Shown here: positions 1 through 51,630 of the stretch, piece after piece
Layout of the letters: every line of letters begins with the position of its first letter
How positions within the stretch are numbered: the stretch's first letter is position 1
Assembly (NCBI GenBank): GCA_020073005.1
Contig: JAIQFX010000007.1
Coordinates: 115,712-172,668, forward strand
Source of the DNA: Terriglobia bacterium
Lineage (GTDB): Bacteria > Acidobacteriota > Vicinamibacteria > Vicinamibacterales > CAVVIG01
Length of the DNA stretch: 56,957 nucleotides
Reading direction: 5' to 3'
Notes under the pieces: model-generated
What the model was told of the DNA's origin: nothing
The model's database searches: none
Seen by the model: only the letters and a program-made list of their open reading frames with translations
Program-made: the position numbers and the translations under genes

Positions 1-880
1 GCTGCTCGATGTAGACGCGCGACCCCGCGACGCACGTCTGGCCCGCGGCCGCGAAGATGCCGGCGAGGACGCCGGCTTCCGCCTGATCGAGATTCGCGTC
101 GCTGAAGACGATATTGGGACTCTTTCCGCCGAGCTCGAGCATGCAGCTGACCAGCCGCTGCCCCGCCCGCGCGGCGATCGCGCGGCCGGCCATGACGCTG
201 CCCGTGAACGACACCTTCGCGACCTGCGGATGATCGACGAGCGCTTCGCCGGTCTCGCGGAAGCCGGTGACGACGTTGATCACGCCAGGCGGGATGCCGG
301 ATTCCTCCGCCAGCCGCGCGAGCTCGATGGCGGATCCCGACGTGATCTCCGACGGCTTGAGGACGATCGTGTTGCCGGCGGCGAGCGCCGGCGCGAGCGA
401 CATGATCGCGATGAAGGTCGGCGAGTTCCACGGCGTGATGACACCGACGACCCCGAGCGGCTCGCGCAGCGTGTAGTTCAGGATGCTGCGCCGCTCGATC
501 GGAATGACCGTGCCTTCGATCTTGTCGGCGAGCCCGCCGAAGTAATAGAGCCAGTCCTCGGCGATCCGCGCCTGCGCGCGCATCTCGGCGTAGAGCTTGC
601 CGTTCTGCTCGGTCTCGATCGTCGCGATGCGATCCGCGTTCGCCGCGACGCGCTCGCCCCACTTCATCAGCAGGCGCCCGCGTCGCGTCGGCGTCAGCGC
701 GCTCCACGGGCCTGAGCGAAACGCCTCCCCCGCCGCCTCGACTGCGCGGCTCACATCGTCCGCCCCCGCGAGCGCGAACGTGCCCCACGGACCGCCGGTG
801 GTCGGATTGAATGCCGTGAACGTGCGACCGTCAGCGGCGGCGACGTCGCGGCCATTGATGTAGTTCGAGTACTGATTCAC
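1..880 (-). CDS. Aldehyde dehydrogenase, partial (C-terminal part off the left edge)
   Basis: NAD(P)-dependent aldehyde dehydrogenase superfamily member, expected to oxidise an aldehyde to the acid in the cytoplasm; the substrate cannot be told. About 293 N-terminal codons are present and the rest lies outside the window. Visible are the N-terminal SNYINGRDV, the cofactor-pocket ITPWNSP segment, the ELGGKSPN loop with the general-base Glu, and AGQTC with the catalytic Cys close to the edge. GTG at 880 is chosen because the resulting N-terminus fits the family; a GGGAAG box sits about 10 nt upstream. It is the last gene of a leftward run scoA-scoB-SDR-ALDH and is separated from the SDR gene by a heptamer array. 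Confidence 0.9.
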   Translation of the reverse strand, partial: MNQYSNYINGRDVAAADGRTFTAFNPTTGGPWGTFALAGADDVSRAVEAAGEAFRSGPWSALTPTRRGRLLMKWGERVAANADRIATIETEQNGKLYAEMRAQARIAEDWLYYFGGLADKIEGTVIPIERRSILNYTLREPLGVVGVITPWNSPTFIAIMSLAPALAAGNTIVLKPSEITSGSAIELARLAEESGIPPGVINVVTGFRETGEALVDHPQVAKVSFTGSVMAGRAIAARAGQRLVSCMLELGGKSPNIVFSDANLDQAEAGVLAGIFAAAGQTCVAGSRVYIEQ

Positions 881-926: not shown

Positions 927-1685
927 CTATATACAGCGTCCGCCGTCGACTTCCAGGACGGCGCCGGTGATGACACTGGCTTCGTCCGACGCGAGAAACA
1001 GCATCGCGTTCGCGATGTCGAGCGGCGCGGTCAGGCGGCCGAGCGGAATCGACGACAGGAACGGCGCGCGGTGCGCCGCGGAATCGCCGCCGACGAACGT
1101 CGCGAGCATCGGCGTGTCGCCCGGCCCCGGACACACCGCGTTGACACGAATGTTGTCCGGCGCGAGTTCAATCGCGAGCGACTTGCTCATGAGCAGCGCC
1201 GCGCCCTTACTGCTGTTGTACGCCGTCAGGTTCGGACGGGGGCGGATCGCCGCGACCGACACCGTGTTGAGAATCACGCCGCCGCCCTGGCGGCGCATCA
1301 CGGGTACCGCGTGCTGCGCCGCCAGAAAGATGGCCTTCGCGTTGACGGCGAACAGCCGATCGAATTCGTCTTCGCTCGTCGACGTGAACGGCAGCGGCGT
1401 CTGCGCCCGGCCCGCGTTGTTGACCAGGATGTCCAGGCGGCCGTACCGATCGACGGCCGTCTGAATCATGCGACGCGCGTCGGCGGCGAGCGCGACGTCC
1501 GCTTCGATTGACGCGGCATTCGCCCCAATCTCGCGAGCAGTTCGTTCACCGGCGACCGCGTCGCGATCGACGACGACCACGGTCGCGCCTTCTTCAGCGA
1601 ACCGGCGGCAGATCGCGGCGCCGAAGCCGGAGCCGCCGCCGGTGACGAGCGCCACTTTGCCGGACAGGCGCGGTAATTTGGTCAT
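927..1685 (-). CDS. Short-chain dehydrogenase/reductase (SDR)
   Basis: Classical SDR oxidoreductase of about 252 residues, NAD(P)-dependent and cytoplasmic. Seen: TGGGSGFG glycine-rich cofactor motif near residue 15, NNAG at about 89-92, and the YNSSK catalytic Tyr/Lys pair near 156-160. An acidic residue after the second beta strand (VVVVDRD) suggests NAD(H) preference. ATG 1685 (MTKLPRLSGK) is preferred over an in-frame ATG at 1709, because the extra eight residues would be encoded by the arm of an inverted repeat. Placed downstream of scoAB, it could act as a 3-hydroxyacyl or 3-hydroxybutyrate dehydrogenase feeding the CoA-transferase; that role is inference from context only. Confidence 0.88.
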   Translation of the reverse strand: MTKLPRLSGKVALVTGGGSGFGAAICRRFAEEGATVVVVDRDAVAGERTAREIGANAASIEADVALAADARRMIQTAVDRYGRLDILVNNAGRAQTPLPFTSTSEDEFDRLFAVNAKAIFLAAQHAVPVMRRQGGGVILNTVSVAAIRPRPNLTAYNSSKGAALLMSKSLAIELAPDNIRVNAVCPGPGDTPMLATFVGGDSAAHRAPFLSSIPLGRLTAPLDIANAMLFLASDEASVITGAVLEVDGGRCI

Positions 1686-1686
1686 G

Positions 1687-1766
1687 GAGTCATCTGGTGA
1701 TCTGGTCATTGGAATTGGCTCATTGATTCCAATCGATCACTCAATGACCAGATCACCAGATGACTC
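1687..1766. repeat. Perfect 25-bp inverted repeat built from octamer words
   Basis: Arms 1687-1711 and 1742-1766 are exact reverse complements with a 30-nt centre. The arms are made of near-repeated 8-mers (TCATCTGG, TGATCTGG on one side; CCAGATCA, CCAGATGA on the other). It lies in the gap between the scoB stop (1778-1780) and the SDR start, on the transcript of both genes, so it could fold as a strong mRNA hairpin. Confidence 0.75.
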
Positions 1767-1777
1767 GATGAACACAT

Positions 1778-2427
<650 letters not shown>

Positions 2428-2431
<4 letters not shown>

Positions 2432-3120
2432 GCGCGCACCGTCCTCTTCTCGATGCGCTTCTCGTAACCCGAGCCTTCGAAAATGTAGCGGACGAAGATC
2501 CCCGGCGTGTGCACGTGATCCGGATCGATCTCGCCCGGCTCGACGAGGTGCTCGACTTCGGCGATCGTCACGTCGGCCGCGGTCGCCATCACCGGATTGA
2601 AGTTGCGCGCCGTGCGCCGGTAGACCAGATTGCCGTCGCGATCGCCCTTCCAGGCCTTCACGAACGCGAAATCGGCGTGGAGCGGCGCTTCGAGGACGTA
2701 GGACTTGCCGTCAATCGTCCGCGTCTCCTTGCCTTCCGCGACGAGCGTCCCGAAACCGGTCGGCGTGAAGAAGCCTCCGATGCCAGCGCCGCCCGCTCGA
2801 ATCCGCTCGGCGAACGTCCCCTGGGGCACGAGCTCGACGTCCAGCTCTTTTGTAAGGAATTGTCGCTCGAACTCCTTGTTCTCCCCGACGTAGGTCGAGA
2901 TCATCTTGCGCACTTGCCGCGCTTTGAGCAGAATCCCGATACCGAAGTCGTCGACGCCAGCGTTGTTGCTGATGACCGTCAGGCCTTTGGCGCCGCGCGC
3001 GTGCAGCGCGGCAATGAGGCGTTCCGGGATCCCGCACAGGCCGAAGCCGCCCATCATGATGGTGGCGCCGTCTGGAATCCGCGCCACCGCCGCCTCCGCA
3101 TGCTCCAGCACCTTGTTCAC
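2428..3120 (-). CDS. scoA: 3-oxoacid CoA-transferase subunit A
   Basis: Alpha subunit (230 aa) partnering ScoB. Seen: the [16 protein letters not shown] glycine-rich N-terminal segment typical of class I CoA-transferase A subunits, and the conserved [15 protein letters not shown] loop. The GTG at 3120 ([12 protein letters not shown]) is chosen because it matches the family N-terminus; the open frame continues 20 codons further but that extension looks unrelated. No convincing Shine-Dalgarno box is visible. The start is only 34 bp from the divergent MoxR-type gene, so promoters for both directions must be packed into that gap or overlap coding sequence. Confidence 0.9.
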
Positions 3121-3154
3121 GGCCGGTATTCTATCAAGTAAGATGTGAGGCCCA

Positions 3155-4195
3155 TTGCATCCAGATCTCGAACACGCCATCGCTTTTCACGAAGCCATCG
3201 TCGCTGAGGGCGGCAAGGCGCTCGTCGGATACGACACCGCCAAGGCGCTCGCCAACGTCGTGCTGATGTCGGAGATCCCGACGTCGTACGACAAGAAGGA
3301 GCAGCGCCAGGTCAACGCCGGCAACCTGCTGCTGCGCGGCGTCCCTGGTGTCGGCAAAACGTTCTTCGGCGTTATCCTCGCCGCGATCAGCAACGCGAAA
3401 TTCGTCCGGCTCCAGGGCCGCGCGGACCTGCAGCCGACCGAAGTCGTCGGCTTCCAGATGATCAACCCCGCGACCGGCGAGCTGATGACGGAATTCGGTC
3501 CGCTCGCCGAAGCCGAAGTCATCCTCCTCGACGAGATCAACCGCATCCCGCTCAAATCGCAGAGCGCGTTCCTCGAGGGCCTGCAGGACCGCACGGTCAC
3601 CGTCGGCAAGACGACCTACGAGCTGCCGGCGTTCAGCTTCGCGATCGCGACGATGAACCCGGTCGAGCTCGGGCAGGGCACGTTCCCGCTGTCGGAGGCG
3701 GCGACCGACCGGTTCGCGATCATGGTGAACATCGGCTACCTGCCGCCGGCGGAGGAAGCCAAGCTCGTGCACTTCGACTTCAAGCGCGTGCGGCTCGACG
3801 CGCTGATGACGAAGGAGCGGATCATCCAGCTGCGCGGCGCAATCACACAGGAAGTCTTCCTGCACCCGCGGCTCGGCATGTACATCCAGCGGCTGGTCGC
3901 GGCGACGCGGCCCTTCAATCCGGAAACGGACTGGAACGTGCGCTCGCCGTCCGATCTGGTCGAGCACGGTGTCGACCTCGGCGCGTCGCCGCGCGCGATT
4001 ATCTGCTGGGGGCGCCTCGCGAAAGTGTGGGCGCTGCTCGTGCGCCGGCGGGCCGAGGTCTACCCGGAAGACATCCAGGATCTGGCGCCGTACATCCTCG
4101 GGCATCGCATCTGGCTCGGCCCGCACGCGGCCAGCCACGGATTGACGACCGACAAGGTGATTGCCGACGTGATCGAACGGGTAGCGGTGCCATAG
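3155..4195 (+). CDS. moxR: MoxR-type AAA+ ATPase (MxaR-like)
   Basis: AAA+ ATPase of the MoxR family (346 aa), thought to work as a chaperone with vWA-domain partners in maturing or activating other proteins. Walker A GVPGVGKT is at about 62-69 and Walker B VILLDE near 123-128, followed by INRIPLKSQSAFLEG and a sensor-type ATMNPVE. TTG at 3155 is the only start that keeps the N-terminal helix; GTGAGG lies just upstream. It heads a six-gene rightward run with a DUF58 protein, two vWA proteins and two membrane-anchored proteins, which is the mxaR-S-A-C-K-L order. Confidence 0.88.
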   Translation: MHPDLEHAIAFHEAIVAEGGKALVGYDTAKALANVVLMSEIPTSYDKKEQRQVNAGNLLLRGVPGVGKTFFGVILAAISNAKFVRLQGRADLQPTEVVGFQMINPATGELMTEFGPLAEAEVILLDEINRIPLKSQSAFLEGLQDRTVTVGKTTYELPAFSFAIATMNPVELGQGTFPLSEAATDRFAIMVNIGYLPPAEEAKLVHFDFKRVRLDALMTKERIIQLRGAITQEVFLHPRLGMYIQRLVAATRPFNPETDWNVRSPSDLVEHGVDLGASPRAIICWGRLAKVWALLVRRRAEVYPEDIQDLAPYILGHRIWLGPHAASHGLTTDKVIADVIERVAVP

Positions 4196-4199
4196 ACTC

Positions 4200-4262
4200 G
4201 AAAGTGAAAACAGAAAACTGAAAACTGAAAACTGAAAGCTGAGAGCTGAGAGCTGAAAGCTA
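4200..4262 (+). repeat. Heptamer array, nine units
   Basis: Nine consecutive 7-nt units drifting from GAAAGTG and AAAACAG through AAAACTG (three times) and AAAGCTG to AGAGCTG (twice) and AAAGCTA. It starts 4 nt after the moxR stop and fills nearly the whole gap to the next start codon. It is A/G-rich in an otherwise GC-rich region. Confidence 0.9.
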
Positions 4263-4269
4263 GATCCGG

Positions 4270-5193
4270 ATGCGTACCCGCGAAACCGACGTCGAACCCT
4301 TCGTCAACCTGTCGGAGCTGACCGAGATCGAGCTCCTCATCCTGCGACGGATGCGCGAATTCACGATCGGCGAGCACCGCAGTCTGTTTCACGGGCACGG
4401 CTTCGACTACGTCGGCCTGCGCGACTGGCAGCCCGGCGATCGCATGTCGGCGATCGACTGGCCGCAGTCCACGCTCACGAACTTCAGCCCGATGGTCGTC
4501 CGCGACTTCGAGCAGCGCAGCACGGCGACGGTCGTCGCGGTCGCCGATGCGTCGCTCTCGACGCGCTGCGGCATCGACGGCGTTCCGATCGCCGCGGCCA
4601 TCGCGCGCGCGATCGGGACGATCGGCATGTCCGCCGTGTTCTTCCAGGACATGTTCGGGCTCATCACGTTCGCGTCGCGCTTCGACGAGCTGTCCGCGGT
4701 GCGGCCGCGCATCGGCAAGAACCAGGTCATCCACTGTCTGGACGCGTACCAGTTCCACACGGGCACGCAGCCGCTCAAGGCCGCGGACACGCTCAGCATG
4801 ACGCTCGCCGGCTTCATGCGGAAGACGTCGATGGTGCCGGTGATTTCCGATTTTCTCTTCGACGAAGCCGCCAACGTCATGGGCGAGCTCGGCCACTTGA
4901 ACACGGCGCACGACGTGTTCATCGTCCTGATCGACGCCGCGTTCGCGTTCGACCTGCCGCCGATCTCGGCGGGATGGATCGAAGGCTTCGACGTCGAAAC
5001 CGGCAAGTCGCGCGTGATGTCGCGCCAGGCGCTGCGCCAGCTCTCGGCCAAGACCCGCACCTGGCAGGACGATGTCGCGGCCATGGCCAAGGCGAACGGG
5101 ATGGACGTCCTGCGCATCGGCGTCGACGAACAACAGACCGCGATCGCGCTCAGCGAGTTCATCGCCGAGCGGAGACTCAGAAAAGCAGCGTAA
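4270..5193 (+). CDS. DUF58 domain protein (MxaS-like)
   Basis: A 307-residue protein of the DUF58 family, which is related to the vWA fold and regularly encoded next to MoxR ATPases. The family signature is clear at about residues 40-65: the GFDYVGLRDWQPGD block followed by IDW. The following segment TVVAVADASLSTRCG resembles a degenerate MIDAS strand. No signal peptide or membrane segment is evident, so it is probably cytoplasmic. ATG 4270 follows directly on the heptamer array, so the ribosome-binding region is formed by or next to the repeat. By position it corresponds to MxaS of methanol dehydrogenase gene clusters; the biochemical role of that protein is itself poorly defined. Confidence 0.85.
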   Translation: MRTRETDVEPFVNLSELTEIELLILRRMREFTIGEHRSLFHGHGFDYVGLRDWQPGDRMSAIDWPQSTLTNFSPMVVRDFEQRSTATVVAVADASLSTRCGIDGVPIAAAIARAIGTIGMSAVFFQDMFGLITFASRFDELSAVRPRIGKNQVIHCLDAYQFHTGTQPLKAADTLSMTLAGFMRKTSMVPVISDFLFDEAANVMGELGHLNTAHDVFIVLIDAAFAFDLPPISAGWIEGFDVETGKSRVMSRQALRQLSAKTRTWQDDVAAMAKANGMDVLRIGVDEQQTAIALSEFIAERRLRKAA

Positions 5194-5195
5194 TC

Positions 5196-6395
5196 ATGCA
5201 GACCAAACGTTTCGTCATCGCTCTTGCGCTCGTCGCCGCCGTGACAACCTTGTCCCCAGGCGCCGCGGCGCAGACCACGCAGACCGACCCGCTCCAGTGC
5301 TGGTGGCGCACGAGCGCCGGCGCCATCCGCGTCGGCGAGATCTTCACGACCGTCCTCACCTGCGCCGTCCTCGAGACCGACGCAGTGACCGTCGTCGTCG
5401 ATCAGTCGAAGCTCGAGCCGTCGGTCATGCAGTTCGCGCCGTTCGAGGTCCTCGGCGGCACGCACGGCGCCGATCTCCGCACCGGCGCGCGGCGCTTCTT
5501 CCAGTACGAGTACCGGATGCGCCTCATCGCCGAGAACCAGTTCGGCAAGGACGTCGCGCTGCCGGAAACGAAGATCAGCTACCGCGTCCAGAGCCACGTC
5601 GGCGACAAGACGTCGATCGAAGGCCGCGATCAGACGTACCTGCTGCCGGCGACCTCGATCCGCGTCCTCTCGCTCGTGCCGGGCGACGCGACCGACATCC
5701 GCGACGCGTCGATGGAAACCTTCGCCGACATCGATCAGCGGGCGTTCCGATCGAATCTGTTCACCGTCGTCGGCGGCGTGCTGTTCGCGCTGGCCGGACT
5801 GCTGGCGATCCTCGCGCTCGTGCGCGTGGCCTCGAAGTTCCGCAAGCCGGTCGAAGTCCAGGATCAGTTGATCAGCGACGCGACGATCCTGCGCGGCGTC
5901 GGCCGCGAATTCGCCGCCGTGCGGCGGGAGCGCGAAGGCGGCGGCTGGACGCCGGAGCTCGTCACGCGCGCGCTGGCCGCGCTGCGCGTCGCGGCCACCT
6001 ACGCCGCGGGCGGCCACGTCGGCCACATGCCGGCCGGCGCCGAAGGCATCGCCGAAGACGGCCGGCTCATCCTTCGGGCCGGCTGGCCGAACGGCAAGCG
6101 CATCGCCGTGTCGGGCGCCATGACGCAGGGCGCGATCACGCGCAGGCTGGCGCGCGCGGCCGGCAACGGCGGCGCGCGCGCCCAGCGCCTCGAGACGCTC
6201 GGCGAGGCGCTCACGACGATGACCGCCGTGCAGTACGGCCGCGAGGCCAGGATGGACGACACCGCGCTCGACGCGGCGCTGGCGAGCGGCGAGGCGGTGC
6301 TCGGGCGGCTCAAGTTCGAGCAGACGTGGATCATGAAGCGGCTCGCGGCCCGGCGGGTGGCGAGCCAGGGTGATACGCGCGCGTGGTCCCGCTAA
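5196..6395 (+). CDS. Signal-peptide, single-TM protein of the MoxR/vWA cluster (MxaA-like position)
   Basis: A 399-residue protein with a signal peptide (cleavage likely after AAAQ, about residue 26), an extracytoplasmic part of roughly 160 residues predicted to be beta-rich, one transmembrane helix near 189-211 (TVVGGVLFALAGLLAILALV) and a cytoplasmic tail of about 190 residues. I do not recognise a catalytic motif. The architecture matches the BatD/MxaA-type anchors found between MoxR/DUF58 and vWA genes, and its place between the MxaS-like and MxaC-like genes is that of mxaA. It starts 2 nt after the DUF58 stop and overlaps the next gene by 13 nt. Assignment rests on order and topology, not on detected homology. 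Confidence 0.75.
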   Translation: MQTKRFVIALALVAAVTTLSPGAAAQTTQTDPLQCWWRTSAGAIRVGEIFTTVLTCAVLETDAVTVVVDQSKLEPSVMQFAPFEVLGGTHGADLRTGARRFFQYEYRMRLIAENQFGKDVALPETKISYRVQSHVGDKTSIEGRDQTYLLPATSIRVLSLVPGDATDIRDASMETFADIDQRAFRSNLFTVVGGVLFALAGLLAILALVRVASKFRKPVEVQDQLISDATILRGVGREFAAVRREREGGGWTPELVTRALAALRVAATYAAGGHVGHMPAGAEGIAEDGRLILRAGWPNGKRIAVSGAMTQGAITRRLARAAGNGGARAQRLETLGEALTTMTAVQYGREARMDDTALDAALASGEAVLGRLKFEQTWIMKRLAARRVASQGDTRAWSR

Positions 6396-7486
6396 CACGC
6401 GTTCCGGCGCTTCTCCGCGACGCGTTCGACGATTGGAGAAATCTCCGCGCCGCCGATCTGCTGTTCACGCACCGCGACGTCGCGATTCTCGCGGCCGTCG
6501 CCCTGATCGGCCTCTCGATCACGATCGTGCTCGCGCGCGCGCTCGCGCGGAGGAAGGCGGGCCGGACGCAGGTCGCCCTGCCGGCCGTGCTGAAGTCGAG
6601 CGGCCGGTCGTGGATCGGCCTCGTGCGCCACGGCGCGCTGCTCCTCTTCATCGCCGGGCTGCCGTTCTTCGTGATGGCGCTCGCGGATCCGTACTCGTCG
6701 CTCACGCGCGAGGACGTCGCGTTCCCCGGCCGCCGCATCGCGCTGATGATCGACGCCTCGTCGAGCATGATGGCGCGCTTCCCCGCCGCGCACCTGAACG
6801 CCAAGGCGCCGAACGAAGCGACGTTCTTCACGACCGTGGCCGCGGCGGAGACGTTCATCCGCCAGCGCATCAGCGGCAAGTACCACGACCTCATCGGCCT
6901 CGTCGAATTCGGCGACGAAGCCTACGTCGTCACGCCGTTCACGACCGACTACGACAACATCCTGCTCAGCCTGTCGCTCGTCGGCGACTGGACCGAGTTC
7001 ATGAAGTTTCCCGATCAGGGCACGACGATCGGGCTGGCGATCGAGCAGAGCGTCGATCTGTTCAAGGCGTTCGACTTCCTCGACGCGTCCGGCAACCTGA
7101 TGCTGATCTTCAGCGACGGCCAGGACACGCAGGTGACGATCCACGGCCGGCACGTCTCGGAGATTCTCGCCGGCGCGGTGGCGACGAAGATTCCCGTCTA
7201 TTTCGTCCGCATGAGCTACAACAAGGCGCTCGGCGCGGTGCTGCCCGACGACATCTGGAAGCCGGCGATCGAGGCGACCGGCGGCAAGTTCTATCCGGCG
7301 AGCGACGAAGCGGCGATTCTCGCCGCGATCAAGGACATCGACTCGCGCACGACGGGCCGCGTGGAGTTGAAGCGCTACAGCAGCCAGCAGCCGAAGTTCA
7401 TGGGCTACGCGCTGATCGCCGCGAGCTTCTGGACTGTTGGGCTGTTCCTGCAGTTGACCGTTCCGTACTTTCGGAAGTTTCCGTAG
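6383..7486 (+). CDS. vWA-domain membrane protein (BatA/MxaC-like)
   Basis: A 367-residue von Willebrand factor A domain protein. Two transmembrane helices (about 35-53 and 84-102) precede the vWA domain, which opens with MIDASSSMM, giving the metal-ion-dependent adhesion site Asp124, Ser126 and Ser128; a third helix lies near the C-terminus (about 343-361). This N-in anchored layout is that of BatA/BatB and MxaC. The GTG start at 6383 overlaps the preceding gene by 13 nt, indicating translational coupling. The domain faces the periplasm in the usual topology. It is followed immediately by a heptamer array. Confidence 0.85.
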   Translation: MVPLTRVPALLRDAFDDWRNLRAADLLFTHRDVAILAAVALIGLSITIVLARALARRKAGRTQVALPAVLKSSGRSWIGLVRHGALLLFIAGLPFFVMALADPYSSLTREDVAFPGRRIALMIDASSSMMARFPAAHLNAKAPNEATFFTTVAAAETFIRQRISGKYHDLIGLVEFGDEAYVVTPFTTDYDNILLSLSLVGDWTEFMKFPDQGTTIGLAIEQSVDLFKAFDFLDASGNLMLIFSDGQDTQVTIHGRHVSEILAGAVATKIPVYFVRMSYNKALGAVLPDDIWKPAIEATGGKFYPASDEAAILAAIKDIDSRTTGRVELKRYSSQQPKFMGYALIAASFWTVGLFLQLTVPYFRKFP

Positions 7487-7487
7487 G

Positions 7488-7522
7488 TTTCACTTTTCAC
7501 TTTTAGGTTTTCAGTTTTCAGT
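7488..7522 (+). repeat. Heptamer array, five units
   Basis: TTTCACT twice, TTTAGGT, then TTTCAGT twice. It begins 1 nt after the stop codon of the vWA gene. The words are the complement of those in the array at 4200, so the same family occurs in both orientations within one operon. Confidence 0.85.
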
Positions 7523-7537
7523 GTCTGGAGCGCACTT

Positions 7538-8263
7538 ATGAAAGGCATCGCAGGTCCACTGGTCATCGCCGTCGTGCTCGCGCTCGCGGGCGCGGCGTCG
7601 TACACGATGGGTCAGACCGAGCAGCGGCTGGCCGACGTGCACAAGCAGCTGGCGACGCTGCGGTTCGTCGCGGCGGGCGCCGGGAGCACCGATGTCGAGC
7701 AGGCGCTCGGGTTCGAACAGCGCCTGCCCGTCGTCGGGCAGGAAGCCGCGAGCGACGTGCGTGACGTGCGCGCGACGTCGGCGTACTGGCGGTCGGACTA
7801 TCCGTCGATCGCGCCGCAGAAGGACGCGGGCGGTATCGTGACGGACACGAACCCGACCGTCGTGTTCCTCGCGGCCAACGCGGCGTTCCGCGCGAGCCAG
7901 TCGAGCGATCGGCTCGATTCGCTGCGCAAGCTGGACACGGCGGTGAAGAATTACGCCGACGTCCTCAAGAACAGCCCCGGTCATCTCGACGCGGCCTATA
8001 ACTACGAGTACGCCGTCCGCCTGCGCGAGACGCTCGCGCATCCGAAGCCGGGCGCGAAGATGGCGGCCGTCGCGCCGAAGCCCGCGGCGGTCGACGAAGC
8101 GGGCGCGGATCTGCCGGCCGGACCGACGCTGCACGGCCGCCCCGGTGGTCCGCCGCCGGCGGCGAACATGAGTCAGTTCAAGATCGTGATCCCGAAGCGC
8201 GGCGAGGAACGCAAGGACGCGCCGGATGCGGGTAAGGGCGGCGCGAAGATTCGAAAGGGATGA
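7538..8263 (+). CDS. Membrane-anchored small protein of the MoxR/vWA cluster (MxaK-like position)
   Basis: A 241-residue protein with an N-terminal hydrophobic segment (residues 5-22) that is either an uncleaved anchor or a signal peptide. About residues 105-165 look helical and TPR-like (SDRLDSLRKLDTAVKNYADV and following), and the C-terminal third is low-complexity Pro/Ala/Gly/Lys. No enzyme motif is visible. Its place between two vWA genes is that of mxaK (or batC, also TPR-like). It is flanked by heptamer arrays on both sides, the downstream one starting at the base after the stop codon. Confidence 0.7.
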   Translation: MKGIAGPLVIAVVLALAGAASYTMGQTEQRLADVHKQLATLRFVAAGAGSTDVEQALGFEQRLPVVGQEAASDVRDVRATSAYWRSDYPSIAPQKDAGGIVTDTNPTVVFLAANAAFRASQSSDRLDSLRKLDTAVKNYADVLKNSPGHLDAAYNYEYAVRLRETLAHPKPGAKMAAVAPKPAAVDEAGADLPAGPTLHGRPGGPPPAANMSQFKIVIPKRGEERKDAPDAGKGGAKIRKG

Positions 8264-8342
8264 AATTAAGAATTGAGAATTGAGAATTAAGAAGAAGCGG
8301 CCGCCCACTCCGCCATTCCTGATTCCTAATTCCTAATTCCTA
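8264..8342. repeat. Head-to-head pair of heptamer arrays
   Basis: Left array 8264-8291: AATTAAG, AATTGAG, AATTGAG, AATTAAG. Right array 8315-8342: ATTCCTG then ATTCCTA three times. The reverse complement of the right array reads AATTAGG and similar words, so the two form an imperfect stem of about 28 bp around a GC-rich centre of 23 nt. The pair starts directly after a stop codon and ends 9 nt before the next start codon. Confidence 0.85.
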
Positions 8343-8351
8343 ATTTGGAGA

Positions 8352-9458
8352 ATGCTGAAAGGCATCGACCTCAACTCGCTGCGGTTCGCGTCGCCCGAGT
8401 ACCTCTGGCTGCTCATCGCGCCGGCGGCGCTGCTCGTGGCGTGGGGCTGGCAGCTCGGGCGGCGGCGGCGCGACGCGCGGCGGTTCCGGCAGCACCGGCG
8501 TCTGCCCGTGCGCGAGCGGTTTCCGATCTTCGGCGGGCTGGCGTTCTGGTTCTGTCTGCTGCTGGCCAGCGCGTCCACGATCATCGCGCTCTCGCGCCCG
8601 ACCGCGGCGGTCGCGCTCGTGCGCACGGCCGGCGTGGACCTGATAATTTTACAGGACGGATCCGCGTCGATGCGGACGCCCGACGTCACGGGCAACCGCT
8701 GGCAGCGGTCGATGCGTTTTCTGCGCGTCCTCGGCGAATCGCTCGCGTGGAAGGACGACCGGATGGCGATGGCGCTCTTCGCGCACATCGCCGCGCCGCA
8801 GATCCGGCTGACCAAGGATCCCAACACGTTCTTCTTCTTCCTCGATCACCTGAACAACGAATCGCCGTTCCGGCTCGAGGACGACACGACGTGGGACACG
8901 AACATCGAGCTCGGGCTCGCGTGGGGCATGCGGCTCATCGAGCGCGATCAGGAGGTCTACGGCAAGTCGCCGAACGCGAAGGCGTTCGTGCTGATTTCCG
9001 ACGGCCAGTCGTGGAGCGGCGAAGTGGCGCGCGCGCTCAAGACCGCGCGCGAGCGCAACCTGCCGGTATTCGTCGTCGGCGTCGGCACGACCGTCGGCGG
9101 GCTGATTCCAGAGCCGCCGCCGGCGCGCGGCAGCACGGCGCCGCAGAATCCGCCGATTCACTCGCAGCTCGACCGCGCGTCGCTGACGATGATCTCGGAC
9201 GCCGGCGGCGGCGAATACATGGAGCTGGATCGCGAGGGCGACCGCGAGATCGCCAACCGCATCATCGACGCGGCGCGCAAGCGGGCGGGATCGCGCGGGC
9301 TCGAAGTCGCGAGCGAAGAATTGTACTGGCGCTTTCTCGCTCTGGCCGTCGTGCTGGTCGGCGTCGGGCTGCTCTTCCTGCAGGAGCGCGTCGAGCTCTG
9401 GCTCCAGGCGGCCGGCGCGAGCGTCGCCCTGGCGCTCGTCTGGACTCTAACCCGTTAG
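8352..9458 (+). CDS. Second vWA-domain membrane protein (BatB/MxaL-like)
   Basis: A 368-residue von Willebrand factor A protein. Helices at about 15-33 and 61-80 anchor it, the vWA domain starts at LIILQDGSASM with a DxSxS metal site (Asp102, Ser104, Ser106), and a hydrophobic C-terminal region (about 326-365) adds one or two helices. The domain carries a Pro-rich insertion around PEPPPARGSTAPQNPP. It is distinct in sequence from the vWA protein encoded at 6383, as MxaC and MxaL are. It closes the six-gene cluster; the next gene is convergent. GGAG lies very close to the ATG, so translation may depend partly on the upstream gene. Confidence 0.84.
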   Translation: MLKGIDLNSLRFASPEYLWLLIAPAALLVAWGWQLGRRRRDARRFRQHRRLPVRERFPIFGGLAFWFCLLLASASTIIALSRPTAAVALVRTAGVDLIILQDGSASMRTPDVTGNRWQRSMRFLRVLGESLAWKDDRMAMALFAHIAAPQIRLTKDPNTFFFFLDHLNNESPFRLEDDTTWDTNIELGLAWGMRLIERDQEVYGKSPNAKAFVLISDGQSWSGEVARALKTARERNLPVFVVGVGTTVGGLIPEPPPARGSTAPQNPPIHSQLDRASLTMISDAGGGEYMELDREGDREIANRIIDAARKRAGSRGLEVASEELYWRFLALAVVLVGVGLLFLQERVELWLQAAGASVALALVWTLTR

Positions 9459-38733: not shown

Positions 38734-40581
38734 TTATCGATCCACTCCGAATGCGAGGAGCACATTGCCCGGCCGTCCGCCGAGCGCGCCGTACCCTGAG
38801 TTGATGTATACCATTCCGCCGGCGACGATCGGGCCCGGGCCGCTGATCGACGCGCCTTTCGCCGGCACGCCGTTCACCGTCTCGAAGTCGCGATTCGTAT
38901 CGAACTCCCACAGCAGCGAGCCGTCCTTCGTCGAGAAACCGCGGACGCCGCCGTCGTTCGATCCGGTGAACACGACGCCGGGGATGACGGTGATGGCGGC
39001 GAGAATCGCCGCGTTGCACCCGCGCCCGCCCGCGGGACACTTCGGTGGCGGCGGCGGCGCGAACCACGACCGCTCGCCGGTGGCGAGCTTCACCGCGTGC
39101 AGGCCGCCCGGCTGCGGACCGATCGTGTCGGAGACCGCGAAGTACGCCTGGTCGCCGTCGACGGCCGAGCCGAATTCGAGGCCGCCGAGCGCGCTGCCCT
39201 TTCCCGCGCGGTACTGCCAGAGCACTTCGCCCTTCTTGTCGGGATCGAACGCCCAGCCGACGCCGGACTTCTGTCCGTCGATGAGGACGTCCTTGCCGCT
39301 GGGCAGCGTAGCCAGAATCGGCGCGCTGCCGAAATCGAAGTCCGGGCCGAGTCCGACCTCCGAGGCGTTCGGGCAATTCGCGCCGTTCGGATTGTTGCAG
39401 CCGACGACGAACACGTCCTTCGGCGTCACCTGCCGCACCCAGCGCGTGGCGCCGGTCGCGAGATCGAACGCGACGATGGCGTCGCTCGTCCCCTGCTGCG
39501 GCTCCGTGTACATGTTGCCCGTCGCGGCGTAGACGACGCCGCGCTTGGCGTCGACGGTCGGCGACGACCAGATGCCGGCGCCCGACGGTCCCCAGCGCGT
39601 CGTGCCGCCGGCGTTCTTGCCGACGGGCTTCGCGTCAGCGGAAATCGTGTAGCTCTTCCACGCGAGCGTGCCCGTGGTCGTGTCCAGCGCGACGAGGCTC
39701 CCGCGGAACGTGCAGCACTCGTACTTGGGATTGCCGCCTTGTCCTTCCTCGCCCGACGCCACCGGCACGTAGAGCCGATCCTTGTAGAGCGCCGGCGTCC
39801 CGGTGATGTGCGCGGACGGATGCTCGTCCACGTTGCGCGACCACAGAAGATCGCCGGACGCGGCGTCCAGCGCGTAGACGTTCGCGCGGCCGTCGCCGAA
39901 GTAGGCCGTCGTTCCACGACCGCCCGTTCGCGGACCGATGACGATCGCCGTCCGCACGGCGCTCTTCGCGCGGTACATCCAGATCGTGCAGCCGGTCTTC
40001 GCGTCGAGCGAGTACACGTCGCCGCTGTTGCTGCCGACGAACAGGCGTCCGCCGGCGACGGTCGGCAGGGCGCGGGCGGAGGTCGCATTCGGGAAGCCGA
40101 ACGCCCACTTCAGCGTCAGCTTCGGCGTCTGCTCGGCCGTGAGCCCGGCCTGCGCGGCGGACTGGAAGCGCGTGTTGGTCACGTCCGGACTCCAGCCGTT
40201 CCACTGCGGGCCCCTGGCGAGATCGAGCGCGGGCGGCCCCGGGGGCGTTATGCAGCGGCCGACGGCAGGCGCGGACGCCTTCGTCGCGAGCGTGCCGCCC
40301 GACAGGTACTCGGCGACGGCGCGGCGCTGCGCGTCAGTCAGGTCCGCACCCTGCTCGCGCATCGAACCCGTCGTCAGCGCGTCGATGATCTGTTCGGGCG
40401 TCCGCTGCCGCAGCGCGGCCATCGATGGGATGCGCGCGTCGGTGCCGCCATGACACGTCGCGCAGTTGTTCTGGAATAGAACGGCCCCGCCGGCGGGGGG
40501 CGGCGCCTGTCGGGCGAACACGACGCAAGGCACGGCCAGCGCGGCGGCGATCGCCGCCACCATTAATAGATGTTGTCGCAT
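38734..40581 (-). CDS. Cytochrome c / PQQ-type beta-propeller dehydrogenase-like protein
   Basis: A 615-residue exported protein with signal peptide, a cytochrome c domain (haem site CATCH, residues 40-44) and an eight-bladed PQQ-binding propeller of alcohol-dehydrogenase type from about 130 to the end. Repeats such as GDVYSLDAKTGCTIWMYRA and ANVYALDAASGDLLWSRN mark the blades. The N-terminal haem and the propeller order resemble polyvinyl-alcohol dehydrogenases rather than methanol dehydrogenase. It should oxidise an alcohol in the periplasm and pass electrons to its own haem; the substrate is unknown. ATG 40581; gaps to neighbours are only 10 nt. Confidence 0.85.
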   Translation of the reverse strand: MRQHLLMVAAIAAALAVPCVVFARQAPPPAGGAVLFQNNCATCHGGTDARIPSMAALRQRTPEQIIDALTTGSMREQGADLTDAQRRAVAEYLSGGTLATKASAPAVGRCITPPGPPALDLARGPQWNGWSPDVTNTRFQSAAQAGLTAEQTPKLTLKWAFGFPNATSARALPTVAGGRLFVGSNSGDVYSLDAKTGCTIWMYRAKSAVRTAIVIGPRTGGRGTTAYFGDGRANVYALDAASGDLLWSRNVDEHPSAHITGTPALYKDRLYVPVASGEEGQGGNPKYECCTFRGSLVALDTTTGTLAWKSYTISADAKPVGKNAGGTTRWGPSGAGIWSSPTVDAKRGVVYAATGNMYTEPQQGTSDAIVAFDLATGATRWVRQVTPKDVFVVGCNNPNGANCPNASEVGLGPDFDFGSAPILATLPSGKDVLIDGQKSGVGWAFDPDKKGEVLWQYRAGKGSALGGLEFGSAVDGDQAYFAVSDTIGPQPGGLHAVKLATGERSWFAPPPPPKCPAGGRGCNAAILAAITVIPGVVFTGSNDGGVRGFSTKDGSLLWEFDTNRDFETVNGVPAKGASISGPGPIVAGGMVYINSGYGALGGRPGNVLLAFGVDR

Positions 40582-40591
40582 GGGGTCCTGA

Positions 40592-41884
40592 TTATCGCTT
40601 CGCGCCACTCGGTCGCGTTCTGGTCGCCGTCGAGCCGGGCAATTCGATCGTGCCGTAGTAGCCGAGCATCATCTCTTCCCACGTCTGATCGCCCCAGCGC
40701 ACGGTCGCGGTCGGATCGGGGTTGAACCGGTTGCCGCTCGAGTTGTCGTAGTGCATCACGACTTTCAGAATCGATCCCTTCGGCATCAACCTCGGCTCGG
40801 CCAGCTTGTAGCTCAGCTGCCAGTTGAAATCGTACTTCGGCACGCGCAGGACGACTTCCTCGCGGCCGTCGGGATAGACGATCGAGTACGTCGCGTCCTT
40901 CCCGCGCACGTGCATGTGCGGGTACATCGTGCTCAGGTACGTGTCGCGATCGATCTTCTGCTGTCCCGTCACGGCGAAGTTCGGATCGCCGGGCGGAATC
41001 GCGAACGTCGTGTTGGGAATCGCGCCGCCCGCTTCCTGACGCAGCTTCGCCGGCGGCTCCTTCGAGAGCACCAGACCGATCTCGGTCTGATCGATCACCG
41101 GCTGCCCGACGGTCGTGTAGTGCATCTGCAGGACGATGTCCGCGCCGGCCGGAATCTTCCGCGCGACGCCGTCCTCGTAGAGCCCGTACAGCCGGCCCGG
41201 CACGAGCCCGCCGAGCCCGCCCGCGACTTCCTTGCGCGTCAGATCTCGCGTCAGGCTCGGCTTCGGATCCGCGGGCATGCCGTTGCCTTCGACGACGTAG
41301 CTGATGATGTGATGGACGACGCGGCGGTCGGTGGGCTTGAGCTCGACGCCGCGAATCCACACGTCCGTCGCGAAGTTCGTGGGAATCGTGACGTACGTGT
41401 ACGGCACCGTGCCGTCGGCGGGCACGGCAAAGGGCTGCTGCATCCTGAGGACGACATCCGGCTTGCCGATCGACCAGCCGTCGGCGAACTCCGGCGCTTT
41501 GGGCAGATCGGCCGCGTTGCCCTGCGGCGCGCCGCCGTCGACCCACGCGACGATGGTGTCGATGTCGGACTGCTTCAGGCTGACGTCGTTCGCGTACTTG
41601 GCGACGGTCGGGTCCGCGCCCCACGGCGGCATCTGCCGCGCGACGACCTTCTGCTTGACGGCGCGCGCCCACGGCCGCACGTCGTCGTAGGTCATCAGCG
41701 ACATCGGCGCCATCGACGTCGGACGATGGCACTCGGCGCAGTTCTTATAGAGGATGGGTGCGACGTCTTTCGTGAAGGTCGGCGTCGGCGTGCCCGCGGC
41801 ACGCGTCACCGGCGACCACACCAGACTGCCCGCGACAATGCCAATCGGGCCAATCAGACCCAGCGTTCGGAGTGCGAATCGCAT
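40592..41884 (-). CDS. Cytochrome c / copper type II monooxygenase-like protein
   Basis: A 430-residue exported protein with a haem site CAECH at residues 49-53 and a C-terminal part like the two-domain copper type II ascorbate-dependent monooxygenases (PHM/DBM fold). Potential copper ligands are in RRVVHHIISY, LQMHYTT, YPHMHVRG and KVVMHYDN. ATG 41884 starts a signal peptide (LIGPIGIVAGSLVWSP). It could hydroxylate or otherwise oxidise a substrate taken up by the adjacent TonB receptor; that link is inference from the 41-nt gap and shared strand. Confidence 0.8.
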   Translation of the reverse strand: MRFALRTLGLIGPIGIVAGSLVWSPVTRAAGTPTPTFTKDVAPILYKNCAECHRPTSMAPMSLMTYDDVRPWARAVKQKVVARQMPPWGADPTVAKYANDVSLKQSDIDTIVAWVDGGAPQGNAADLPKAPEFADGWSIGKPDVVLRMQQPFAVPADGTVPYTYVTIPTNFATDVWIRGVELKPTDRRVVHHIISYVVEGNGMPADPKPSLTRDLTRKEVAGGLGGLVPGRLYGLYEDGVARKIPAGADIVLQMHYTTVGQPVIDQTEIGLVLSKEPPAKLRQEAGGAIPNTTFAIPPGDPNFAVTGQQKIDRDTYLSTMYPHMHVRGKDATYSIVYPDGREEVVLRVPKYDFNWQLSYKLAEPRLMPKGSILKVVMHYDNSSGNRFNPDPTATVRWGDQTWEEMMLGYYGTIELPGSTATRTRPSGAKR

Positions 41885-41925
41885 AAACCCTCCACGGTCT
41901 CGGAGATTATGAACCAGGAACCCTC

Positions 41926-49914: not shown

Positions 49915-51513
49915 TCAACGTCCCTGACGGATCGTCTTCAGCTCCGGCAGATCCGCGTCGGCCGTGCTCCAGTACTTGCCCGCGAGCGCGAGCTCGGCGG
50001 CGGCCGTCCGCTGATCGCCGGCATGCTGTGCCACGAGCGCGAGCGCGTAGTGCGAGCCGGCATAGTTCGGATCGTGCGCGGTCATTTGACGCGCGGCCCA
50101 GCCGGCCAGATCCCACTCGCCCGCCTCGCGGGCGGCGCGCGCCATCGCTTCGAGCGTGAACAGCGTCTGCATGAAGTTGTCCGGACCGGATTGCAGGCGC
50201 GCCTTGCGCGCGGCTTCCTCGAGCGCCGGCCGCGCCTTGTCGAGCTGCTTCGTGCGCAGGAAGAACTCCGCCTGGAACGTCTGGAGCGGCACGGCGATCA
50301 ACCCCCCTCCCTCGACGCCCTGGATCACTCGCAGCGCCGCGTTCCCTTCGTCGGCGGCGGCCTTGAACTGCCCCAGCGCGAGCTGTGCGTGACCGGCCTG
50401 GACATGTCCCCCGGCGCTCACGAGCGGCGACCGGTGGCTCGCCATCACGTTCGCGGCCTCGAGCGCCTCGGCCGCGCGGCCGCGCGCGAGCAGGAACACG
50501 ATCCATTCGCGCTTGTTGAACTCCTGCACGACGAGCGACGACGGGATCGCGAACGATCGCTTGAACACGGCCTCGGCCTTCGCCATCTGGCCCGCGTACT
50601 GATACGCCTGCCCCAGCAGATCGAGATTGTGCTGGTAGTGCCAGTCGAACTCGGCGGGGATCTTCTCCGCGGCGAAGTACGCCGACTCGAGCGCGTCGGC
50701 CGCCTGGAACTCCGCGATGGCCTCGTTCATCCGCCCCGTTCGCATCAGGTCGTGGCCGCGCATGTGGCGGGCATGCGGCACCTTCGGCGCCATCGCGGCG
50801 TACGTGGCGCCTTCCACGATGGCCGCGTCGAGGCGGCCGCTGTTCTCGTAGGCATGCGAGAGGTAGTGGTGAGGGGCGACGGCGTCCGGCGCCAGCGCGA
50901 GCGCCTTGTCGTAGAAGGGAATCGACGCGGCGGTGCTCCCCTGCCCACGCTCCGCCGGATCGGCGGACTCCGCCATCCCGCGCAGCAGCCACAACTCCTG
51001 GTCCTGCGGAAACTGCCGCAGCGCTTCGTCGAGCGCCTGACGATACGCGGCCAGCTTCGCCGTGTCGCCCGGCGCGGCCTCGGCCGTCATCTGCCGCTCG
51101 CGCAGCGCGATGTGGCGCCGATCGTGATCATTGGCGCGCGAGGCCAGGGCGTTCGCGCGCTCGAGCGCCGACTTCGCGGCGGCCGGCGCGTTCAGCTCGG
51201 TATACGCGAGGCTGAGTTCCGCGCGCGCGATGGCGAGGTTGGGATCGAGCGTCAGCGCCTGATTGAACGAGCGCGCGGCCTCGAGCCAGACGTACGAGTG
51301 CATGTAGGCGAGGCCTTGATCGTAGAACGCCTGCGCCTGCTTCGAGGCGGTCGCCACGGCGTCGTGGGCGACGCCGATGCCGGTTCGCAGCGGCACCGGC
51401 CGCCTCGCCGCTTCGAGAATCGACGCTGTCGCCGGCGGCGCGGCGTGCTGATGCGTGTCTTGCGAAAGGGCGAGCGCGGTGGCGAGCGCCAGAATAGGAA
51501 CCACGGCAATCAC
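49915..51513 (-). CDS. Exported TPR-repeat protein
   Basis: A 532-residue protein with an N-terminal hydrophobic segment (VVPILALATALALSQ) and a helical solenoid of TPR-type repeats for most of its length, for example AQAFYDQGLAYMHSYVWLEA, then ALTLDPNLAIARAELSLAY and GHVQAGHAQLALGQFKAAAD. The TPR scaffold probably mediates protein contacts in the periplasm. Possible starts are GTG 51513 or GTG 51504; the longer open frame upstream is only the heptamer array. No Shine-Dalgarno box is obvious. It lies downstream of a TonB receptor gene on the same strand but behind a strong hairpin. Confidence 0.78.
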   Translation of the reverse strand: MIAVVPILALATALALSQDTHQHAAPPATASILEAARRPVPLRTGIGVAHDAVATASKQAQAFYDQGLAYMHSYVWLEAARSFNQALTLDPNLAIARAELSLAYTELNAPAAAKSALERANALASRANDHDRRHIALRERQMTAEAAPGDTAKLAAYRQALDEALRQFPQDQELWLLRGMAESADPAERGQGSTAASIPFYDKALALAPDAVAPHHYLSHAYENSGRLDAAIVEGATYAAMAPKVPHARHMRGHDLMRTGRMNEAIAEFQAADALESAYFAAEKIPAEFDWHYQHNLDLLGQAYQYAGQMAKAEAVFKRSFAIPSSLVVQEFNKREWIVFLLARGRAAEALEAANVMASHRSPLVSAGGHVQAGHAQLALGQFKAAADEGNAALRVIQGVEGGGLIAVPLQTFQAEFFLRTKQLDKARPALEEAARKARLQSGPDNFMQTLFTLEAMARAAREAGEWDLAGWAARQMTAHDPNYAGSHYALALVAQHAGDQRTAAAELALAGKYWSTADADLPELKTIRQGR

Positions 51514-51561
51514 AGTGTACCGGAATGAAAAAAGGCGGCGGGACCGGGGTCCTACCGCCCA

Positions 51562-51628
51562 GAGATTGAGGATTGAGGATTGCGGATTGCGGATTTCTTC
51601 AATCCGCAATCCGCAATCCGAGATCCGC
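51562..51628. terminator. Heptamer arrays forming a perfect 19-bp hairpin, candidate terminator
   Basis: Heptamers GAGATTG, AGGATTG (twice), CGGATTG, CGGATTT run into AATCCGC (twice), AATCCGA, GATCCGC. Bases 51577-51595 and 51601-51619 are exact reverse complements around a 5-nt loop. It starts 2 nt past the TonB receptor stop (51631-51633) and precedes the TPR gene on the same strand. It lacks a clear U-tract, so terminator activity is only likely, not shown. Confidence 0.6.
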
Positions 51629-51630
51629 AA

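Follow-up and report, generated by a model that had tools for sequence, protein, structure and literature searches.

A six-gene MoxR/vWA cluster with the gene order of mxaRSACKL in one acidobacterial order, and its possible link to PQQ dehydrogenases

How metal and PQQ enter periplasmic dehydrogenases is little understood. The locus described here, which lies in a 56,957-nucleotide stretch of acidobacterial DNA (the window), has six genes in the order of mxaRSACKL, the genes that assist the MxaFI methanol dehydrogenase of methylotrophs, and the question is whether they serve a PQQ enzyme or belong to the more general Bat/MoxR system. A literature search for mxaR with Acidobacteriota found nothing, and searches on MoxR, Acidobacteria, and BatA gave no acidobacterial cluster by title among the matches listed. 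According to PMC9976466, the MoxR ATPase is genetically tied to vWA proteins in NorQ/NorD and other MoxR/vWA pairs, and a reductase cannot receive its iron without NorQ/NorD. The cluster in the window shares this tie and differs in adding two vWA proteins, a DUF58 protein, and the proteins A and K, with membrane and periplasmic parts.

The six genes and their products

Six open reading frames on the forward strand (3155–9458) encode a MoxR ATPase (R), a DUF58 protein (S), protein A, a vWA protein (C), protein K, and a second vWA protein (L) (Table 1). This R-S-A-C-K-L order, claimed in an earlier note on this DNA, was confirmed by the reading frames, by Pfam domains, and by its recurrence in related loci.

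Table 1. Coordinates of the cluster genes and the genes upstream of them.
Feature	Coordinates	Strand	Basis
SDR dehydrogenase	927..1709	-	NF005559 E 1.8e-94
3-oxoacid CoA-transferase subunit B	1778..2431	-	TIGR02428 E 3.7e-98
3-oxoacid CoA-transferase subunit A, divergent to R	2428..3180	-	TIGR02429 E 1.1e-88
R, MoxR AAA+ ATPase, 346 aa	3155..4195	+	AAA_3 E 9.8e-34, AAA_lid_2
S, DUF58 protein, 307 aa	4270..5193	+	PF01882 E 2.2e-14
A, MxaA/BatD-like layout	5196..6395	+	hydropathy, AlphaFold model
C, vWA protein with N-terminal TMs and C-terminal TM	6383..7486	+	VWA_2 E 2.3e-8, hydropathy
K, one N-terminal TM and TPR-like helical domain, 241 aa, MxaK/BatC-like	7538..8263	+	hhalign, predicted model
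L, second vWA protein, MIDAS-type motif DGSAS	8352..9458	+	VWA E 1.9e-10

R has a TTG start and carries Walker A (GVPGVGKT) and Walker B (VILLDEI) motifs. Counted from its first start, the divergent CoA-transferase subunit A gene runs 26 bases into R, which makes a later start likely. Protein A consists of an N-terminal hydrophobic stretch resembling a signal peptide, a beta-sandwich domain (residues 33–157), a TM helix (hydropathy peak at 191–209), and a helical C-terminal domain; its AlphaFold model has a pLDDT of 82.5 and a pTM of 0.48. A Pfam search with A returned no family, and a fold search gave mostly generic Ig-like or TRAP-type matches, one of them at E 0.001, with TM-scores by query of at most 0.20 among the 50 matches listed. 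Gene C has a GTG start that overlaps the 3′ end of A, and its product carries the MIDAS-type motif DASSS; D-x-S-x-S is present in 63 of 63 sequences. The only Pfam match of K was DUF945 (E 0.1). Its model (pLDDT 73.5) gave weak TPR fold matches, these being mostly TPR-type among the 50 matches listed and none at E 0.001. A scan for promoters and terminators gave no signal exceeding that of shuffled sequences.

Conservation of the cluster among relatives

Among 67 stretches fetched, 66 carry one or more cluster genes and 65 carry at least three. All six genes are present in 48 of these 65 related loci, which belong to one acidobacterial order, and none of the 65 is rearranged or has genes on mixed strands. 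Six of the 17 incomplete loci reach a contig end (L079, L080, L084, L087, L095, and L246), and K is present on inspection in L093 and L096, though these stand outside the count of 48. S is absent from six second-copy clusters of genus g24 (three verified by profile), the cluster of genome G370 (L240) is split, and, at the threshold used, neither K nor L was found in L227 and no L in L245. The median identity of R to 62 members of the order is 84%, and its length of 346 aa is kept in most relatives.

Gene A occurs in 51 of 106 genomes of the order, and the cluster was found in about half of this one order only. R at 78% identity or more was found in five of five A-positive genomes tested versus none of five A-negative ones, whose MoxR proteins were 36–40% identical or gave no match at E 1e-20. 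The three other MoxR-DUF58 operons of the genome contain no A- or K-like ORF detectable with window and mxa profiles (best E 0.076). A plasmid search with gene A gave no match, and one with R gave identities of at most 40.3% among the best 40 of 279 records. The six genes, with their order and domains, are conserved as a unit.

Comparison with mxaRSACKL

The mxa reference comprised six plasmid-borne loci from Methylobacterium, Paracoccus, Methylocystis, and Azospirillum (L102–L107), four of them annotated and two placed by tblastn. They share with the window the order MoxR-DUF58-(TM protein)-vWA-(small TM protein)-vWA; in all six, as in the window, the two vWA genes have a small TM gene between them, and BatD is annotated in none of the four annotated loci. 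The layouts of A and K are also alike, in that hydropathy indicates an N-terminal TM in K and in six of six MxaK proteins and a central TM in A and in five of six MxaA proteins. Alignment of window and Mxa profiles with hhalign gave the diagonals R-R, S-S, C-C, and K-K, and PQQ dehydrogenases are present in the genome.

Identical order, shared TM positions, and matching diagonals are what a genuine mxa system, acting in calcium insertion for a Ca-type PQQ dehydrogenase, would be expected to show. We nevertheless consider it very improbable that the cluster is such a system. The earlier note proposed comparing A with MxaA, and no sequence match was found: hhalign with sequence profiles gave 0.2–0.6% (local, and local plus global with a deeper 61-row profile), the similarity being one of layout only. 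D-x-S-x-S, the MIDAS-type motif that L keeps, is found in 55 of 55 window-type L sequences and in none of six MxaL proteins. Furthermore, Ca-type active sites (a residue other than D at +2) are scarce alongside the cluster, with 2 of 37 readable sites in A-positive versus 8 of 27 in A-negative genomes, counted over related sequences and mostly top matches; the PQQ alcohol dehydrogenases (PQQ-ADHs) resident with the cluster are mostly lanthanide-type. R is 25–29% identical to MxaR. A MoxR tree gave no decision for or against a single clade of window and Mxa sequences (p-AU 0.431), the stems of both being very long.

The comparison of K with MxaK did not set K apart from Bat. K matched MxaK at 91.6–93.3% in hhalign, but BatC matched equally well (94.6%), and an ordinary TPR protein of the same genome reached 70–72% against the window-K profile, compared with 24–77% for single MxaK sequences. 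The decoys were 30 own-genome TPR loci, several of them of one protein; a synthetic TPR consensus had given too few. After both the TPR decoy and BatC had matched, the K–MxaK match was dropped as decisive evidence for an mxa system.

The cluster also differs from mxa loci in lacking upstream mxaFJGI. The absence of mxaF, mxaJ, mxaG, and mxaI from the window, stated in the earlier note, agrees with profile searches based on the four annotated mxa loci, which detected no MxaJ, MxaG, or MxaI there at E 0.01, and with TIGR03075, which found no MxaF-type protein over its cut-off in the window; MxaD had no match there either. In 68 fetched stretches, MxaJ and MxaI were not found at E 0.01, and the MxaG profile gave four weak cytochrome matches (best E 1.5e-4), none of them in the window.

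Comparison with Bat operons

Five annotated Bat operons from spread species (L292, L293, L294, L296, and L298) served as a second reference, with the layout MoxR-DUF58-DUF4381/hypothetical-BatA-BatB-(BatC)-BatD. BatD lies 3′ of the vWA genes in all five; three of them have the TPR gene after both vWA genes, and the other two have no separate TPR gene. In contrast, the window has its TPR gene between the vWA genes, has no vWA-vWA-TPR-BatD order, and has a cluster of six genes only, which was met, within the sequences searched, in a single acidobacterial order. The gene order is discriminating: it is that of mxaRSACKL and not that of the five Bat operons.

Sequence comparison points the other way. 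All six window families scored higher on Bat than on Mxa profiles (R, 341 versus 138; S, 120 versus 112; C, 158 with BatA versus 102; K, 57 with BatC versus 52; L, 161 with BatA versus 44, or 72 with MxaC; A, 41 with BatD versus 20 with MxaA), a comparison that is somewhat uneven because the Mxa profiles represent six alphaproteobacteria and the Bat profiles five spread species. In hhalign, the Bat-type MoxR, DUF58, and two BatA/B-type vWA families matched at 100, 98.8, 99.4, and 99.5%, and A matched BatD weakly, at 41.9% over 42 columns of the beta domain. At E 0.01, a BatD profile detected nothing in the window or the 68 stretches, but its reach is limited, as it gave no match in L108–L110 either, and may not extend to acidobacterial BatD; DUF4381 was likewise unmatched in the window and the 68 stretches.

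The earlier note had also offered a general Bat/MoxR system with convergent order. Given the failure of A to match MxaA, the tie of K with BatC, and the unspecific PQQ association described below, this reading has at least as much sequence support as mxa kinship, although the order is not that of Bat operons and BatD was not matched. In its plainest form, a generic envelope chaperone or stress system of Bat type that has the mxa order by chance and is unlinked to PQQ enzymes, it accounts for the profile scores but seems somewhat unlikely in view of the gene order, the unmatched BatD, the unevenness of the scores, and the restriction to about half of one order. Were it correct, a Bat-type system would have reached the mxa order independently, a caution against mxa naming from order alone.

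We tentatively prefer to see the cluster as encoding a MoxR/vWA maturation complex that is derived from Bat and has the mxa order, with periplasmic PQQ dehydrogenases as its most probable clients. The six products may form one inner-membrane complex, descended from a Bat-type MoxR system and having the same gene order as mxaRSACKL. R would be a cytosolic ATPase ring that remodels membrane-anchored partners, the MIDAS-type vWA domains would come from C and L, A would contribute an Ig-like domain on the periplasmic side, and K would serve as a TPR platform, with S as a dispensable auxiliary. The clients, periplasmic metallo-dehydrogenases and most likely PQQ-ADHs (here nearly all D-x-D), would need help with the uptake of metal and PQQ or with reaching a metal-ready fold. 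The role of the MoxR/vWA pair NorQ/NorD in iron insertion speaks for such a function.

Co-occurrence with PQQ dehydrogenases

The genome encodes six PQQ-ADHs over the TIGR03075 cut-off, all outside the window. Within the window, an ORF combining cytochrome c and a PQQ propeller (38734–40608, reverse strand) scored 99.8 bits against the cut-off of 480, and the 172.7-kb contig of the cluster has a single TIGR03075 match, which is weak and 29 kb away. PqqC was not found in this genome, which entails that PQQ would have to be imported. Across the order, 13 of the 106 genomes have PqqC over its cut-off, and 12 of these are A-positive; most A-positive genomes thus lack PqqC.

TIGR03075 matches over cut-off were found in 45 of 51 A-positive versus 19 of 55 A-negative genomes (Fisher p 1.1e-8; p 3e-4 at the genus level), and in 22 of 22 versus 2 of 5 within the cluster's own family. 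This leaves 19 A-negative genomes with a PQQ-ADH and six A-positive ones without any over cut-off; two of these six (G329 and G355) have no PQQ-ADH at E 1e-60. A control with CoxL-like proteins (CO-dehydrogenase) gave 35 of 51 versus 15 of 55, with a genus-level odds ratio of 7.9 compared with 8.1 for PQQ. The association with PQQ enzymes is therefore present but unspecific, and co-occurrence was dropped as decisive evidence. The CoxL result lends weight to an unlinked Bat-type system, as the co-occurrence may stem from lineage or an aerobic life style.

Genes beside the cluster and active sites

PQQ-ADH genes recur next to the cluster, in four genera that belong to three families, and this argues against a system unlinked to PQQ enzymes. 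Nine PQQ-ADHs of at least 200 bits lie in 617 kb of flanks versus 1.2–3.6 expected under assumed densities, and they come from few lineages (four from g24 and three from g17). In G370, a PQQ-ADH gene is located between R-S and A-C-K-L, and in one genus a duplicated S-less cluster lies beside a cytochrome-fused PQQ-ADH. One neighbour enzyme, in L076, scores 521.7 bits to the "acido-empty-quinoprotein" family, below its cut-off of 650, and may therefore hold no PQQ; a relative of it occurs in an A-negative genome (G350, L216). The proposal in the earlier note of a different metalloenzyme, possibly a PQQ protein elsewhere in the genome, draws support from these neighbours and from co-occurrence, and is weakened by the CoxL control and the unpaired genomes. 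Maturation of such a PQQ protein remains the best single hypothesis for the client.

An aspartate at +2 (D-x-D, lanthanide-type) is found in eight of eight PQQ-ADHs of the genome and in 11 of 11 cluster-near matches, two of which are weak. If the cluster acts on such enzymes, it would be a candidate lanthanide-enzyme maturation system for acidobacteria rich in them, and the role of mxaRSACKL would become testable beyond methylotrophs. The D-x-D bias, the PQQ-ADH inside the G370 cluster, and the S-less copy beside a cytochrome-fused PQQ-ADH could even indicate an mxa-type machine dedicated to lanthanide-type PQQ-ADHs, which we regard as rather unlikely. The usual view is that lanthanide enzymes are loaded with no help from mxa-like proteins; such a dedicated machine would mean that they can possess a loading chaperone of their own.

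Other genes also recur beside the cluster. A CxxCH protein is encoded at 11 loci in 5 genera and an aldehyde dehydrogenase at 9 loci in 7 genera, and a large ORF occurs with a small twin-arginine-like one, each at 4 loci in 4 genera. We take the latter two to be a GMC oxidoreductase and subunit 3 of a gluconate dehydrogenase; one such large ORF had no NCBIfam match at E 1e-20. These neighbours, like the CoxL co-occurrence, would fit a client that is another periplasmic or membrane oxidoreductase, such as a GMC-type dehydrogenase, c-type cytochromes, or CoxL-type enzymes. We judge this unlikely, since among the 28 neighbour groups listed only PQQ-ADH reaches three families.

The six-gene cluster and its conservation

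The cluster is a real, conserved MoxR/vWA operon in mxa gene order and is Bat-like as judged by its sequence. PQQ alcohol dehydrogenases (PQQ-ADHs) are its leading, as yet unproven, candidate client. The earlier note had offered two readings, maturation of a different metalloenzyme, possibly a PQQ protein encoded elsewhere, or a Bat/MoxR system with convergent order; each retains something, the candidate client on one side and the Bat-like sequence on the other, and kinship between the mxa and window clusters apart from Bat is neither shown nor excluded.

Features of the window, with profile scores of the cluster families against Bat and Mxa
Feature	Position	Strand	Length (aa)	Product or match	Bat score	Mxa score
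Six-gene cluster	3155-9458	+
R		+	346	MoxR	341	138
S		+	307	DUF58	120	112
A		+	399	no Pfam or NCBIfam family over cut-off	41 (BatD)	20 (MxaA)
C		+	367	vWA	158 (BatA)	102
K		+	241	no Pfam or NCBIfam family over cut-off	57 (BatC)	52
L		+	368	vWA	161 (BatA)	44
ORF	38734-40608	-	624	cytochrome c domain and PQQ beta-propeller; 99.8 bits to TIGR03075 (low)
ORF	40592-41932	-	446	CxxCH motif; unmatched in Pfam and NCBIfam within the limits applied
ORF	49918-51630	-		BatC TPR profile, E 3.7e-8

At least one cluster gene was present in 66 of 67 fetched stretches and at least three in 65, and none of these 65 loci had a rearranged order or mixed strand. All six genes were found in 48/65 loci, or in 50/65 counting the K genes of L093 and L096, which the script behind the count of 48 hid and a separate reading made visible. 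Median identities to the window (54–62 relatives per gene) were 84% for R, 61% for S, 41% for A, 51% for C, 40% for K, and 57% for L, R being conserved far above its partners. Six loci of genus g24 (L218, L220, L222, L223, L232, and L234) lack S, and all six genomes carry a second, complete six-gene locus. In genome G370 (L303/L240) the cluster is split into R-S and A-C-K-L by about 9.5 kb.

Of 297 genomes sampled from throughout the phylum, 15 had gene A, and every one of these belongs to the order of the source genome. Within that order the gene was present in 51 genomes out of 106 (90% completeness), in a few as fragments only. A scan of 84,980 species yielded 31 gene A loci, titled Acidobacteria or Acidobacteriaceae (25), Luteitalea (1), Acidimicrobiia (4), and Bifidobacterium (1). 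The public records that bear the name Bifidobacterium breve or Acidimicrobiia (L176, L179, L181, L182, and L187) and yet contain the acidobacterial cluster are probably mislabelled MAGs.

Comparison with mxa and Bat operons

Six plasmids supplied the canonical mxa clusters, two of which were unannotated and were placed by tblastn. The order R-S-A-C-K-L is common to all six and the window, as the earlier note had proposed. Five annotated Bat operons read MoxR-DUF58-X-BatA-BatB-(BatC)-BatD; compared with these, both mxa and the window have a TPR gene between the vWA genes and lack BatD, which sets them apart from Bat. At E 0.01, neither the window nor any of 68 stretches matched the BatD and DUF4381 profiles, although the reach of these profiles is limited, since the other MoxR operons of the source genome were not matched either.

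The AlphaFold model of A (27 rows; pLDDT 82.5, pTM 0.48) combines a beta-sandwich (residues 33–157) with a TM helix and a C-terminal region made of helices. That of K (26 rows; pLDDT 73.5) begins with a long helix at the N-terminus and continues in TPR-like helices. By hydropathy, K shares an N-terminal TM segment with 6/6 MxaK, and A shares a central TM segment with 5/6 MxaA and an N-terminal peak with 3/6.

In a 6 × 6 matrix of window and mxa profiles, the diagonal was prominent for R, S, C, and K, whereas L was closer to MxaC than to MxaL. In the comparison suggested by the earlier note, A (the 5196 product) matched neither MxaA nor any other mxa family, and K (the 7538 product) matched MxaK but scored higher against BatC. 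Bat profiles outscored Mxa profiles for every window family, a somewhat uneven comparison because the Mxa profiles come from six alphaproteobacteria only. The Mxa families likewise scored higher against Bat than against the window families; the exceptions were MxaS (Bat 110, window 112) and MxaA, which matched neither. In a MoxR tree of 29 rows, window R and MxaR formed two separate long stems, and forcing them into one clade cost 1.08 log units (p-AU 0.431). From scores and tree together, shared descent of mxa and window apart from Bat is therefore neither shown nor excluded. The motif D-x-S-x-S is kept in 55/55 window-type L proteins and absent from 6/6 MxaL. The window ORF matching the BatC profile is probably an ordinary TPR protein.

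Association with PQQ alcohol dehydrogenases

No match over the cut-off of TIGR03075, the PQQ-ADH profile, lies in the window, in agreement with the reported absence of mxaF; the source genome has six (53 matched stretches altogether). In the family, a PQQ-ADH over cut-off was present in 22/22 A-positive vs 2/5 A-negative genomes. Across the order, with overlaps counted by hand from two genome lists, A and a PQQ-ADH occurred together in 45 genomes; 6 had A alone, 19 a PQQ-ADH alone, and 36 lacked both (p 1.1e-8). At genus level the corresponding counts were 24, 5, 13, and 22 (p 3e-4). PQQ dehydrogenases thus do co-occur with the cluster, but CoxL-like proteins, used as control at E 1e-150 (only 8 genomes exceed the CoxL family's own cut-off), were also associated with A (35, 16, 15, and 40, p 3.4e-5; by genus 22, 7, 10, and 25, p 3.5e-4), so that the co-occurrence is not specific evidence.

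The position of PQQ-ADH genes close to the cluster is somewhat better evidence. The flanks of 65 clusters, 617 kb in total, contain nine PQQ-ADH matches of at least 200 bits. Between 1.2 and 3.6 are expected (p 6e-6 to 0.012) if the density is assumed to be 10 per 5 Mb, 20 per 5 Mb, or 35 per 6 Mb; should it be even higher in family f6, the excess would count for less. The neighbours occur in g12, g17, g24, and g207, genera of three families, a span reached by none of the other neighbour groups among the 28 listed. A PQQ-ADH gene lies 1.4–3.4 kb from four of the six S-less g24 clusters, and a divergent one within the roughly 9.5 kb that split the G370 cluster.

All ORFs were examined in the PQQ-ADH neighbourhoods of L232, L240, and L076; in L076 a cytochrome c gene separates R from the PQQ-ADH. 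Upstream of the cluster, the source genome has SDR, 3-oxoacid CoA-transferase, and aldehyde dehydrogenase genes. Genes near the cluster fit alcohol oxidation. In 68 stretches MxaJ and MxaI had no match and MxaG four weak matches to cytochromes, two being genes adjoining the PQQ-ADHs of L076 and L077. The quinohaemoprotein-like ORF of the window lies 29 kb from the cluster, and the 446-aa ORF resembles, by eye, a protein kind recurring beside clusters in five genera.

Metal type and PQQ supply

Lanthanide enzymes are described in PMC10875860 and PMC11996626 as carrying Asp two residues past the catalytic Asp. With this +2 position taken from XoxF and MxaF chains, Asp was found in 8/8 loci of the source genome, in 35/37 family loci (these 8 included), and in 11/11 cluster-near matches, two of them weak; further loci of the order had D (19), T (5), A (3), and one unreadable residue. 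Non-D residues occupied 2/37 readable sites in A-positive vs 8/27 in A-negative genomes (p 0.013), the sites being related to one another and mostly the best match per genome. The difference is therefore only a hint, one that speaks against plain calcium insertion. At one grassland site, methanol dehydrogenases in genomes, gp6 acidobacteria included, were all XoxF-type according to PMC6784897. The main texts of PMC6784897 and PMC10875860 contain no mention of MoxR.

PqqC exceeded its cut-off in 13/106 order genomes. G022, of the same genus as the source genome, has one over cut-off, but none was found in the source genome itself, which would therefore import PQQ, a possible route, or hold partly "empty" enzymes. 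The L076 enzyme scored 521.7 bits, under the cut-off of 650, against TIGR04528, a related quinoprotein family with "empty" in its NCBIfam name.
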